Below, piece by piece: positions 23,041 through 27,552 of a stretch of DNA of 64,000 nt; within the stretch, counting starts at the first letter, position 1, and the number at the start of each line of letters is the position of its first letter. Below the pieces are notes generated by a model that saw nothing but the letters and a program-made list of their open reading frames with translations, was not told the DNA's origin and ran no database searches. This stretch comes from Desulfosporosinus acidiphilus SJ4 (GTDB lineage Bacteria > Bacillota > Desulfitobacteriia > Desulfitobacteriales > Desulfitobacteriaceae), in assembly GCF_000255115.2 (NCBI RefSeq), contig NC_018068.1:2885977-2949976 (forward strand). The letters run 5' to 3'. The position numbers and the translations under genes were made by a program.

Positions 23041-24186
23041 TTATTTTGCTTCCCCAAATATTTGAAAGGTTAAAGTATTGTTATTAACATCACTTCGGAT
23101 CAGTAGAAATGTTTTTGAATCGTTTCGAAATTTGAAATCAAGATCCGGATACGCCACCGTTGCATCTTGGCCTGGCGGAACATAGGCAACAGGCAGACTA
23201 TGGCGTGAACGTTCGACTACCGTTAACAGAGGAGATGCTGAATGAACGGCATTAAACAATGTACTGGAAACTTGACATACACCGCCGCCCAACCCTGGTA
23301 CGAATGAATTCCCTTCAATAATCAGAGCTTCTTGATATCCGGCTTCAGCGGTTCTTGGTCCAACTGTCCGGTTAAAAGAGAAAACCTCTCCAGGCTGCAG
23401 CACCAATCCATCGACTGATTTTGCCGCGAGCTGCAAATTAATCGTTCGTTCTTTCTGATTGGGATCAAAACTGGTCGAATATTTACTTAGCAGGCCGTAC
23501 ATTTTTACCTTAGCCAAGTCCGCTTTTGTTATAGTGGGGTTGACTTGTTCAAATGGAATAGAGATTTTTGAAATGTCATTATAAGGTTCTTTTTTGATGC
23601 TGGTCATTAAAGACTCAAAGTCAATTTGTTTCCCAGGCTTTTCTGGAACAATCCTCAGCGAGTGATCGGAGTTAACTAAAAAACGGGCATTCTCTGAAGA
23701 AATATTCAGTTCCGAGAGATGTCTTATTAAGACTTCCCGGAGAACGTGATCATCCCAATGATAGTTGGGTGTAAACGTGATTCCCCATCTCGCGTTAAAT
23801 TTGCTAAAAGCTTTATTGAAAATATTCCCTTCTCGCCCAATGAGATAGGCTTTTTGCAGCGGCTCTTCAAAAGAATACGAAAAGCCAAGTTCCTCAAGAT
23901 TTAATGAATAACTTTTATCGCCAGCAATTAAAAAAACGGGGCGCTTGTAGATTTCTTTTTGCATTTGATCCAGTTTCGACTGAGCCTCTCCCCTAGAAAG
24001 GTTCCCCAACGGGATTTGTAATACAATACCCTCGGCAAGTTGCCCCTTGTCGCTAGTATATAAGACCAGGGATAGACTAATCCCCCCGACAAGTACAATA
24101 ACAAAACATGCCAAAAGTAAAACTTTATAACGTATTGCCATACTTTGACTTCTTGATTTTTCGGCCGCGCTGCAATCTTTTTCCAC
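23041..24186 (-). CDS. VanW family protein with N-terminal membrane anchor
   Basis: 381 residues. A short cytoplasmic head and one transmembrane helix (VLLLACFVIVLVGGISLSLVL) lead to an extracellular part with a peptidoglycan-binding-4-like region (about 60-210) and a VanW domain (about 240-380). That domain contains PGEVFSFNRTVGPRT, GGGVCQVSSTLFNA and RHSLPVAYVPPGQDATV. VanW proteins are cell-wall associated and of unknown activity; despite the name no vancomycin-resistance genes are near. GTG at 24186 is chosen because AAGGGAG lies eight bases upstream; the frame opens earlier at 24204. Confidence 0.85.
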   Translation of the reverse strand: MEKDCSAAEKSRSQSMAIRYKVLLLACFVIVLVGGISLSLVLYTSDKGQLAEGIVLQIPLGNLSRGEAQSKLDQMQKEIYKRPVFLIAGDKSYSLNLEELGFSYSFEEPLQKAYLIGREGNIFNKAFSKFNARWGITFTPNYHWDDHVLREVLIRHLSELNISSENARFLVNSDHSLRIVPEKPGKQIDFESLMTSIKKEPYNDISKISIPFEQVNPTITKADLAKVKMYGLLSKYSTSFDPNQKERTINLQLAAKSVDGLVLQPGEVFSFNRTVGPRTAEAGYQEALIIEGNSFVPGLGGGVCQVSSTLFNAVHSASPLLTVVERSRHSLPVAYVPPGQDATVAYPDLDFKFRNDSKTFLLIRSDVNNNTLTFQIFGEAK

Positions 24187-24379
24187 CTTAGAATCTCCCT
24201 TCACAGCAAGTAACGTTTAACTATATGCGTGTCGGGAGAAAAACTACATAACTATTTGCTTGGATATTAATGGAGATCCCATTTGATTTCAAAGAGTGAA
24301 CTAAATTTCGTGAACTTATAATGCAAATGGATGACATGAAGAAGATTTTTAGAGAAGTTTTTGAGAATTTTTTAAGAAA

Positions 24380-24433
24380 TTCACAAGAAATCCATAGCTC
24401 ATTCACAACAAAATCTCATTGATTTTTTATACT
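24380..24433 (+). promoter_or_regulatory. Promoter with three 11-bp-phased direct repeats (upstream of Gln-rich ORF)
   Basis: TTCACA (24380), TCCATA (24391) and TTCACA (24402) lie exactly 11 bp apart, and TATACT (24428) follows 26 bp after the third. This is the layout of OmpR/PhoB-family activator sites in which the repeats stand in for the -35 box. The region 24411-24437 is nearly the same as 25265-25291 in front of the response-regulator gene. The rest of 24187-24624 shows no gene. Confidence 0.6.
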
Positions 24434-24624
24434 TTGGCCATAAAAATAAAACTGATATTGATTCATTGTTTCAATACCATTACTTTACAGGAGAAACTAT
24501 GCTAAATAAAACGAAGTGAATTTAGGACTCTTAAGTATCAGGCTGATTATTCAGGTTTCGTATTTGCTGCTTTGAACTCCAGGGGATTCCCCCACCGAAG
24601 TTTTTAAAAGATCAATATATTCAG

Positions 24625-25056
24625 ATGCAGCAAGCCATTTCTAGCTTGCAATCTACCTTTGGTTCACAAACTCAAGGAGTCAACCTAGGGCAAGGTCAGC
24701 AGCAGATAACTCAACTGCTGGATCAAATGAACCAATTTAAAAACCAGTCTCAACAGGAGAAATTACAAAACGTCAATCAAATTCAGCAATCAATCCAAAA
24801 TGCTATTCAAGCTTTAAATCAAGCAAATCAATCCGCTCAGTCCACAAAAGTCCTCACGCAAATGCATGAATTTATTGATCAAGCTCAAACTCAACTTCAA
24901 AACATGGCACAAAGCTCACAACAGCAGCAACAACAAACTGGACAAAGCCAGCAAACTCAATATGGACAATCATATCAGCAAATGAATCAACAAACGAATC
25001 AGCAAACGAACAAAACTCAAAATCAGAACCAACAACAAAATACAAGACTTCAATAA
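24625..25056 (+). CDS. Gln/Asn-rich low-complexity protein, start uncertain
   Basis: 143 codons rich in Gln, Asn, Ser and Thr; the first half is a likely coiled coil (QQITQLLDQMNQFKNQSQQE) and the last 50 residues are almost pure Q/N/T. There is no ribosome site at the ATG. The only good site is AGGAGA at 24489 with ATG 24499, and that frame stops after six codons. An adjacent frame between 24541 and 24625 reads like a signal peptide followed by PGDSPTEVFKRS, so the gene may have lost its proper 5' end by indels. The shared promoter suggests control by the two-component system downstream. No family recognised. Confidence 0.45.
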   Translation: MQQAISSLQSTFGSQTQGVNLGQGQQQITQLLDQMNQFKNQSQQEKLQNVNQIQQSIQNAIQALNQANQSAQSTKVLTQMHEFIDQAQTQLQNMAQSSQQQQQQTGQSQQTQYGQSYQQMNQQTNQQTNKTQNQNQQQNTRLQ

Positions 25057-25190
25057 AGAAAACTCGGCTGAGTACCCACTAAGACACTGTCTTCGCACGT
25101 ATTAGCCCTTCTTCTAGTATGCAATTGAAAGTGATACCTTCACGGGAGTGCCGCGAAACTATTTATAATAGTAAGCGGTACTCCTGTTTC
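25052..25190 (+). repeat. Dispersed intergenic repeat, copy 2, ending in an IS1182-end-like hairpin
   Basis: Begins AATAAAGAAAAC right at the stop of the Gln-rich ORF, carries AAGACACTGTCTTCGCACG and ATTAGCCCTTCT, and ends with the hairpin at 25145-25184. Copies of the central motif lie at 13157 and 44326. Confidence 0.6.
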
Positions 25191-25195
25191 TTTGC
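25145..25195 (+). terminator. Solo hairpin with the fold of the IS1182 ends
   Basis: Outer stem GGAGTGCCGC/GCGGTACTCC, internal loop GAAA/TAA, inner stem CTATT/AATAG with loop TAT, then TGTTTCTTT. The sequence lines up with the left end of the IS1182 element at 6052. It may act as the terminator of the Gln-rich gene. Confidence 0.6.
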
Positions 25196-25233
25196 TGGTT
25201 TATAGAACGAACTATTGTATTAGTTGCTTTAAA

Positions 25234-25287
25234 TTCATTAGAAATTCACAACATATTCATCATAAAATCTAATTCAATGTTTATACT
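25234..25287 (+). promoter_or_regulatory. Promoter with three 11-bp-phased direct repeats (two-component operon)
   Basis: TTCATT (25234), TTCACA (25245) and TTCATC (25256) are spaced by 11 bp, with TATACT (25282) 26 bp after the third, the same geometry as at 24380-24433. It lies 171 bases before the response-regulator start and suggests autoregulation. Confidence 0.65.
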
Positions 25288-25311
25288 TTGAGACAGATAG
25301 CCGTAAAGAAA

Positions 25312-25337
25312 AACGCACCCTTGTTAAGGAGTGCGTT
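25312..25337 (+). terminator. Leader hairpin before the response-regulator gene
   Basis: AACGCACCCT and AGGAGTGCGTT pair around a short loop in the 5' leader. There is only a weak T-run, so it may be a leader structure or weak attenuator. No gene was seen between it and 25458. Confidence 0.4.
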
Positions 25338-25457
25338 ACTTATTCATAAAGCATAAAACACAAGCCTTATCATTACATCATTTGATATGATTGTCTATAA
25401 ATCGAGTTTCCTTGTATAATAGGCTATAACTTCGTGGATTAGGAGGATAGAATTTAA

Positions 25458-26150
25458 ATGAGGATTTTAGTTGTAGATGATGAAAAGAAAATCACCTCAG
25501 TACTTAAAGCCTACCTTCAACAAGAAGGATTTCAGGTTAATACAGCCTTAAACGGTATCATTGCCTTAACCATGTTTAAAGAAAACCCCTATGACCTGGT
25601 GATTCTTGATTTAATGCTTCCCGGTATGACCGGAATAGAAGTATGCCAGGAAATTCGAAAAATATCCTCTGTACCTATCATTATGCTCACGGCCAGAGTT
25701 GAAGAGGAAGACCGTATTCAAGGATTAAGCATCGGGGCTGATGATTACATTACTAAGCCCTTCAGCCCTCGTGAAGTCGTCGCCCGCGTGCGGGCAGTTC
25801 TTCGCCGCTCGAATAATGAAACTTCCCCTCTGGCCGACGTCATTACCTATGACAATGGCCTTACCATCGATAATATTCAGCATGAAATTCGACTTCACGA
25901 TCAAGAGATTGCCTTAACCCCCACTGAATTTAAAATACTTGGCGCTCTTGCCAAACATCCCGGAAGGGTCTACTCCCGCGGCCAATTGGTGGAGATTGTC
26001 CAAGGTCACGACTTTGAGGGGGATGACCGTGTCATTGACGCCCATATTAAGAAAATTCGCCAGAAAATCGAAACTACACCCAGTGATCCACAAATCATTA
26101 TGACGGTTTACGGTATAGGTTACAAATTCAACCCAAACAGCGGAGGATAA
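25458..26150 (+). CDS. OmpR/PhoB-family response regulator
   Basis: 230 residues: receiver domain (1-115) with the acidic pocket in VVDDEKK, phospho-acceptor Asp in LVILDLMLPG and Lys in ITKPFSP, then a winged-helix DNA-binding domain (about 130-225; LTPTEFKILGALAKHPGRVYSR, DDRVIDAHIKKIRQKIE, GIGYKF). AGGAGG lies upstream of the ATG. The kinase gene follows after one base. The 11-bp-phased repeats upstream fit DNA binding by this family, so it probably activates its own promoter and that of the Gln-rich ORF. Confidence 0.95.
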   Translation: MRILVVDDEKKITSVLKAYLQQEGFQVNTALNGIIALTMFKENPYDLVILDLMLPGMTGIEVCQEIRKISSVPIIMLTARVEEEDRIQGLSIGADDYITKPFSPREVVARVRAVLRRSNNETSPLADVITYDNGLTIDNIQHEIRLHDQEIALTPTEFKILGALAKHPGRVYSRGQLVEIVQGHDFEGDDRVIDAHIKKIRQKIETTPSDPQIIMTVYGIGYKFNPNSGG

Positions 26151-26151
26151 C

Positions 26152-27552
26152 ATGCGCAAAAAGTTATTTCTCTCCACCCTTATCATCACTCTCATAACCT
26201 TAACTTTCAGCATACTAGCAGTTGATCTGGTTTTTCACCGGCAATTCAGTAATTACTTGACTAGGACCAACGAAACTCTCGTCGAACAACTGCCTTCGCG
26301 GCTCAGCAGTGCCTATCAAAGCAAAGGGACTTGGGACCCTGCCTCGCTCCAAGAGATCAGCCAATCTCTCCCTGCAGGGACTATTGTTACCCTAACTGAT
26401 CCCAGCGGTAACCAAATTGCCACGTTAAGTAACATGATGGGCGGCATGATGAACGGTCAAGGCGGAATGAGTATGGGCATGAGTATGTTCTCAACTTCCA
26501 ACACAAATTGGAAAACGAAAACGTTAACAGTCTCAGGCCCGCAAGGAGTTTTAGCTAAAGCCATTATCCGCTACCCTTCCTCAGCACCCATTATTAATCC
26601 CCAGGACGTTCAGTTCCAGTCATCTGTTCTATACTCTATACTATTCGCCGGAAGTTTGGCCTTAGCATTTGGAATTATACTCAGTTACTTCACAAGTCGT
26701 CATCTCGTAACACCGCTGAAACGACTCACTCAAGCCGCGGATCGCATCGGCAAAGGCCATTTGGATGAACGCGTTGATATTTTGACGAAGGATGAAGTCG
26801 GCCAATTAGCTGTCGCTTTTAACGTGATGGTTAACAATCTGAAACGCCAAGAGACTCTCCGCAAGCAGTTTACAGCAGATATTGCTCATGAACTGCGTAC
26901 GCCGTTAACATCCATCAAAAGCTACATCGAAGCCTTTCAAGACAACGTTTTGCCAGCTGATGAAGAAAATCTCTCCTCCATTCATGAGGAAATTGACCGC
27001 CTTGTTGATCTAGCAAGCGACTTAAGAGACTTAAATGTGGCAGAAATGGGAGCATTAACTCCCAGCTTTGAACCGGTTGACATAAACCATCTTCTGGAAA
27101 CTGTGATCCGCAATCTCACTCCGTTGATGCAAGAAAAACAGTTGGCTCTAAACTGGAATCCTCCGCCCGCATCGGTTATGATGCAGGGAGACGGGCGACT
27201 CTTAACAAGACTGTTTTACAATCTCATTCACAATGCTTATCGTTATTCAAATATCGGCGGTCAAGTAACCGTCACTTTGACACCAGACCCCGATTGTTCA
27301 ACCATTCGTGTCAAAAATACCGGCAGCGGCATTCCGGAAGAGGAACTTCCTTTCATCTTCGAGCGGTTTTATCGTGCTGATAAATCTCGCACCCGCGAAA
27401 CGGGAGGATCGGGTATTGGTCTCGCATTGGTACGCCAAATCACGACTCTGCACCAAGGAACCATCGAAGTTCAGAGTAAAGTCGGACAGGAGACGGAATT
27501 CATTGTTCAGCTTCCTCTAAAATTTAAAGGCGGCCCAACTATTCTTAATTAG
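26152..27552 (+). CDS. Membrane sensor histidine kinase with Met-rich extracellular loop
   Basis: 466 residues. Transmembrane helices at about 5-28 and 158-180 enclose an extracellular sensor domain that holds a methionine-rich stretch (about 95-112, eight Met in 18 residues: MMGGMM, MSMGMSM). A HAMP domain follows (about 180-235), then HisKA with phospho-acceptor H246 in DIAHELRTPL, then the ATPase domain with N box NLIHNAYRYS, G1 VKNTGSGIPEE and G2 GGSGIGLALV. The gene starts one base after the regulator's stop, with CGGAGGATAAC as ribosome site. Met clusters of this kind often bind Cu(I) or Ag(I); sensing metal is my inference. Confidence 0.93.
   Translation: MRKKLFLSTLIITLITLTFSILAVDLVFHRQFSNYLTRTNETLVEQLPSRLSSAYQSKGTWDPASLQEISQSLPAGTIVTLTDPSGNQIATLSNMMGGMMNGQGGMSMGMSMFSTSNTNWKTKTLTVSGPQGVLAKAIIRYPSSAPIINPQDVQFQSSVLYSILFAGSLALAFGIILSYFTSRHLVTPLKRLTQAADRIGKGHLDERVDILTKDEVGQLAVAFNVMVNNLKRQETLRKQFTADIAHELRTPLTSIKSYIEAFQDNVLPADEENLSSIHEEIDRLVDLASDLRDLNVAEMGALTPSFEPVDINHLLETVIRNLTPLMQEKQLALNWNPPPASVMMQGDGRLLTRLFYNLIHNAYRYSNIGGQVTVTLTPDPDCSTIRVKNTGSGIPEEELPFIFERFYRADKSRTRETGGSGIGLALVRQITTLHQGTIEVQSKVGQETEFIVQLPLKFKGGPTILN

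Follow-up and report, generated by a model that had tools for sequence, protein, structure and literature searches.

A predicted genus-wide promoter class near a two-component operon of Desulfosporosinus acidiphilus, with copper as the probable signal

In a 64,000-nucleotide stretch of Desulfosporosinus acidiphilus SJ4 (contig NC_018068.1; hereafter, the window), two short promoter regions near an OmpR/PhoB-type two-component operon share the same set of direct repeats. This layout raises the question of which protein reads the repeats, and what it controls. A first-pass annotation took the repeats for operators of the adjacent two-component system, one driving that operon (autoregulation) and the other driving a Gln-rich open reading frame (ORF) that might reveal the function of the system. 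The link between operator and two-component system is supported by co-occurrence and linkage across genomes; neither the proposed target nor autoregulation as a conserved trait is.

Two promoters and the family to which they belong

The two sites contain the following elements.

24380-24418, plus strand: site 1 repeats TTCACA (24380), TCCATA (24391) and TTCACA (24402), with an 11-bp period
24413-24418, plus strand: degenerate fourth half-site of site 1, ATCTCA, on the same 11-bp period
24428-24433, plus strand: site 1 -10 box TATACT, 26 nt from the start of repeat 3
25234-25272, plus strand: site 2 repeats TTCATT (25234), TTCACA (25245) and TTCATC (25256)
25267-25272, plus strand: degenerate fourth half-site of site 2, ATCTAA, on the same 11-bp period
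25282-25287, plus strand: site 2 -10 box TATACT, 26 nt from the start of repeat 3

Read directly, the sequence agrees to the base with the first description of the repeats, the 11-bp period and the 26 nt to TATACT; the degenerate fourth half-site and the extension of the 26-nt rule to a whole family of sites are additions. A 27-base composite pattern with up to 3 mismatches is found twice in the window and not once in 100 dinucleotide shuffles, and the looser pattern suggested at first (three TTCAYA units spaced by N5, up to 2 mismatches) also occurs twice (on average 0.06 times in shuffles). With up to 3 mismatches allowed, the whole genome holds 16 matches to the composite pattern vs. none to a reversed-pattern control, and 29 of the 30 genomes of the genus carry sites (control matches, 0). 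A chance likeness of AT-rich sequence, which has AT richness and nothing more in its favor, is refuted by these controls, in which zero matches are expected, as well as by the genus-wide conservation of box and phase; its probability is negligible.

From loci of this genome and its relatives, 114 non-redundant sites (up to 4 mismatches) were assembled, not all of which are independent, as some promoters spread with duplicated genes. The consensus profile, built without the window sites, consists of four 11-bp-phased half-sites, TTCATg-agaaa-TTCAcA-acttt-TTCATg-agata-aTCGTA, followed by a -10 box TAYACT. Within the fourth half-site (aTCGTA), C and A are conserved at 100%, T at 94% and G at 84%. 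In 92 of the 114 sites, the best -10-like hexamer begins exactly 26 nt downstream of the first base of repeat 3, and half-site 3 by its position occupies the place of a -35 box. This layout is that expected of activation by an OmpR/PhoB-type regulator, the mode of action that it would suggest here.

Both window sites are real members of this predicted genus-wide family of binding sites, and they represent the weak end of a larger system. Repeat 2 of site 1 has a C where the family has T at 99%, both sites lack the conserved G of half-site 4, and their PWM ranks are low (72 and 75 of 114 for sites 1 and 2, respectively), which is in keeping with decay.

Two arrays elsewhere in the genome depart from the rule. 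At L014:6868 (C3:546867), before a gene for an HD-domain protein, the -10 box is nearer by one repeat (11 bp), which would fit the retention of half-sites 2-4 alone. At L017:9745-9799 (C3:4264744-4264799), a run of TTCACTATAAA units with an 11-bp period, lacking the 26-nt -10 box, precedes a cell-wall-binding protein gene; it is either an independent 11-bp repeat array or a different operator.

What lies behind the window sites

The surroundings of the two sites are as follows.

23041-24204, minus strand: gene for a protein with a VanW domain and, putatively, a peptidoglycan-binding domain; it lies upstream of site 1
24499-24600, plus strand: decayed 5' end of a cupredoxin gene (signal peptide), reading MLNKTK* with further stops and frame breaks
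24601-25056, plus strand: 5'-truncated fragment of a Gln-rich family gene, ATG at 24625, without a Shine-Dalgarno sequence
25312-25337, plus strand: hairpin (-13.6 kcal/mol), about 25 nt after the -10 box of site 2
25391-25420, plus strand: housekeeping-type promoter TTGTCT-18-TATAAT, directly upstream of the regulator gene
25458-26150, plus strand: OmpR/PhoB-family response regulator, 230 aa (Response_reg, Trans_reg_C)
26152-27552, plus strand: sensor histidine kinase, 466 aa (HAMP, HisKA, HATPase_c)
26434-26487, plus strand: Met-rich sensor loop of the kinase, MMGGMMNGQGGMSMGMSM

The Gln-rich ORF behind site 1 was rejected as a functional target. Intact members of its family start with about 30 further residues (MSN...DMEVA.ELGQLKDQF), the codons for which are missing here, and no box is seen within 230 bases upstream of those in other genomes. 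The fragment joins a dead signal peptide at about 24601. The truncation, the dead signal peptide and the boxless intact relatives together mark it as a gene fragment and not as an informative target. The decayed signal peptide aligns with MKKTKWIVGLSIAS, the start of a cupredoxin gene; two related genomes (G001 and G017) carry this gene intact at the corresponding position, directly before the regulator. Judged from this alignment, site 1 is the presumptive promoter of the dead cupredoxin gene. The Gln-rich family itself (with QQLNQLVQHMTQFK further along the protein; L189-L199) is present in 10 of the 30 genomes of the genus.

Between site 2 and the start of the intact regulator gene, 224 bp further downstream, stand the hairpin and the TTGTCT-18-TATAAT promoter. 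The hairpin is called terminator-like on the minus strand only, and an Rfam scan of 24200-25600 gave no match, which indicates that it is no known riboswitch. In G001 and G017, the same hairpin stands behind the copper gene(s), just before the regulator, together with the same promoter, and no box lies between the upstream gene and the regulator. This promoter element is also found at many other regulator copies.

A conserved autoregulated operon, with a box in the regulator's own promoter in the orthologs as well, is not what these loci present: a box lies within 700 bp upstream in 3 of 30 regulator copies and is absent from the other 27. At L010 and in G001, a box stands one gene further up, where read-through from a copper operon into the regulator is possible. 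Autoregulation may also operate locally in the window. Site 2 has probably lost the gene that it once served as promoter, and it may now feed the two-component operon by read-through of the hairpin, in parallel to the operon's own promoter.

By a stricter reading, which we put at somewhat less than even odds, both window sites would be relics without a present role, site 1 of a dead gene and site 2 of a deleted one. The dead cupredoxin start behind site 1, the hairpin that follows site 2 in place of a gene of its own, the low PWM ranks and the shared loss of the half-site 4 G all favor this reading. On the other hand, both sites retain the -10 box and the exact 26-nt phase, and site 2 lies upstream of an intact regulator gene, into which read-through is conceivable.

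The regulator, its boxes and the genes behind them

The regulator combines a receiver domain (PF00072, 2.7e-33) with a winged helix (PF00486, 2.7e-27); these domains and a direct-repeat operator with an 11-bp period are characteristic of the OmpR/PhoB family. The genome holds two more copies with 88-91% identity, the next regulator being at 51%. With three near-identical regulators, the binding cannot be assigned to any one of them. A scan of a broader collection with the regulator found distant relatives only (up to 57%), and plasmid records held relatives below 60% only. The kinases are marked by the Met-rich loop, which lies between two membrane segments in all 29 kinases read.

Two further features of the additional copies may be recorded. 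An internal deletion has left the kinase of the second copy (L014:15155-15742 = C3:555154-555741, minus strand) only 195 aa long, with a remnant of the catalytic domain in another frame, so that this regulator copy has no intact partner kinase adjoining. A gene pair for a sigma factor and an RsgI-like anti-sigma factor stands beside two of the three regulator copies (L010:14780-16602 and L014:12488-14139).

Among 74 genomes of the order, sites are present in all 38 with a regulator ortholog vs. 3 of the 36 without one (Fisher 6e-18, a value that is too optimistic, as kinship is uncorrected). Linkage and a contrast within one genus provide lines of evidence separate from the Fisher value. In that genus, one genome (G047) has both ortholog and sites and another (G048) has neither. 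In several closed genomes, sites lie near the gene: the distance from site to regulator is 86 bp (G033) or about 3.3 kb (G006 and G029); all 4 sites of G010 lie within 25 kb of the regulator, and 7 of 11 in the D. acidiphilus genome within 30 kb. Because of this co-occurrence and the clustering of sites near the gene, a regulator of this family very probably binds the boxes. It is quite improbable that a different regulator reads them and merely co-occurs with the two-component system. Such a regulator would account for the boxes in three genomes (G009, G025 and G043) in which no regulator or kinase ortholog was found, one rated complete (G009) and two under 80% complete, and for the many regulator copies that lack an adjoining box. 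The unbroken 38/38 co-occurrence and the close linkage in several closed genomes speak against it, as do the repeat geometry, which is typical of OmpR/PhoB-type regulators, and the recognition-helix segment DDRVIDAHIKK, from which a single copy departs, by a single residue, across the orthologs in which this stretch was read.

The genome-wide scan that the first-pass annotation had recommended is what defines the function of the system, and its matches are not scattered without relation to promoters. The first genes behind the boxes fall mainly into three groups: (i) a secreted Met-rich family without a Pfam match (26 genes); (ii) secreted proteins that have a signal peptide in common and a stretch rich in Met, Gly and Tyr, and that end in a cupredoxin or PepSY domain (21 genes); and (iii) small SHOCT membrane proteins (14 genes). 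Single genes or pairs encode HMA-domain P-type ATPases, PspA, a cell-wall-binding protein, and chemotaxis-like and HD-domain proteins, the last four kinds not being copper genes. The secreted Met-rich proteins, the commonest first product, have a signal peptide, an MQxFMQ... motif and an ...MMNGSG...MMNF tail (L014:9813-10256, L011:16076, L013:3623 and 23 relatives); the member tested had no Pfam or NCBIfam match.

The output includes copper-resistance genes, as in heavy-metal systems of the CopRS/SilRS/CusRS type. For instance, L011:15717 is CopZ (above cut-off) and L011:10138 is of the DsbD/CcdA type, each being the second or a later gene behind a box. A rusticyanin-like protein (L010:11649) matches Pfam Copper-bind and TIGR03095 (E 3e-31, below the equivalog cut-off). 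The multicopper oxidase L011:17085 is a neighbor in the same cluster and at most a candidate for box-driven expression. L016:11057 is a heavy-metal P-type ATPase; the heavy-metal ATPase of the D. acidiphilus genome gets a better score for the Zn/Cd/Pb type than for the Cu type, and the nearby site lies behind the ATPase gene, before a SHOCT gene. Together with the Met-rich kinase loop, the targets point to copper or silver outside the membrane as the likely signal.

The sites are thus read, with a probability of roughly 0.7, as operators of a copper-type (possibly Cu/Ag) envelope two-component system. Through its Met-rich loop, the kinase would detect metal on the outer side of the membrane and then phosphorylate the OmpR/PhoB-type regulator, molecules of which would fill the head-to-tail 11-bp half-sites in tandem. 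With the third half-site in the -35 place and the -10 box at a fixed 26 nt, RNA polymerase would be recruited to promoters that have no -35 box of their own. From the observed repeats, fixed phase, genome-wide sites, co-occurrence and linkage, kinds of downstream genes and Met-rich loop, we infer that the regulator binds the sites, that it activates rather than represses, and that copper is the signal.

The same regulator and regulon could instead answer to general envelope stress, in the manner of BaeSR or CpxAR (low pH, misfolded secreted proteins), with the copper proteins forming only part of the output. PspA, the SHOCT membrane proteins and the cell-wall-binding protein among the targets would suit such a signal, as would BaeS_SmeS as the kinase's best NCBIfam match. 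The BaeS and BaeR cut-offs are missed by a wide margin (261.9 vs. 500 bits for NF012163 and 232.9 vs. 380 bits for NF007982), and the Met-rich sensor loop, CopZ, the cupredoxins and the multicopper oxidase speak for metal; we consider envelope stress an unlikely signal. Copper or silver remains the preferred one.

Comparison with known systems

Searches of the literature turned up nothing relevant on copper two-component systems or rusticyanin in Desulfosporosinus, and no description of the regulon, the rigid phase or the target set was found in the literature searched. The kind of system is already known; the regulon, the phase and the targets would be new. We regard it as rather likely that they represent an undescribed genus-wide copper/envelope regulon of anaerobic Firmicutes, in which a rigid four-half-site promoter with a fixed 26-nt phase controls secreted rusticyanin-like cupredoxins and the Pfam-less secreted Met-rich family, operator and regulator having been amplified by duplication. 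With so precise a sequence rule, the members of the regulon can be listed for any genome of the family. The rule joins uncharacterised secreted Met-rich, SHOCT and rusticyanin-like proteins under one control system, and it points to extracellular copper handling in these anaerobes. The window also illustrates that a single locus may suggest a target which turns out to be a dead gene, the real regulon being found elsewhere.

The excerpted account of CopRS of Corynebacterium glutamicum (PMC3140484) describes a Gram-positive copper two-component system whose output likewise includes a multicopper oxidase and a P-type ATPase, and whose regulator binds a direct repeat with an 11-bp period (TGAAGATTTnnTGAAGATTT). 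In contrast to the 16 sites here, that account reports a single genome site, with a different repeat sequence. The CopS loop contains 3 His and 2 Met, whereas the kinase here has a dense Met run, and no rusticyanin-like or SHOCT targets are named in the excerpt.

Head-to-tail binding to 11-bp-phased direct repeats is also shared with other OmpR/PhoB-type regulators. PhoP of Mycobacterium tuberculosis recognizes repeats of TCACAGC separated by a 4-bp spacer, and its binding is tighter when three or four motifs stand in tandem (PMC4832192), and the PHO boxes of Streptomyces and E. coli are built of 11-nt repeat units (GTTCACC) (PMC4415409). These systems govern phosphate or virulence regulons, unlike the metal and envelope genes here, and the regulator scores 238.2 bits against the PhoB equivalog TIGR02154 (cut-off, 296.2 bits). 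The kinase matches BaeS_SmeS over nearly its full length and has an OmpR-type partner, as in BaeSR, but differs in its Met-rich sensor loop and its targets. With the CusRS/SilRS/CopRS family, the system shares a metal-resistance output and, presumably, metal sensing outside the membrane; its scores lie below the cut-offs of TIGR01387 (regulator, 181.4 vs. 279.2 bits) and TIGR01386 (kinase, 211.3 vs. 292.55 bits). The system works like the CopRS, PhoP and PHO systems, and by curated cut-offs it stands outside the named copper, Pho and Bae families.
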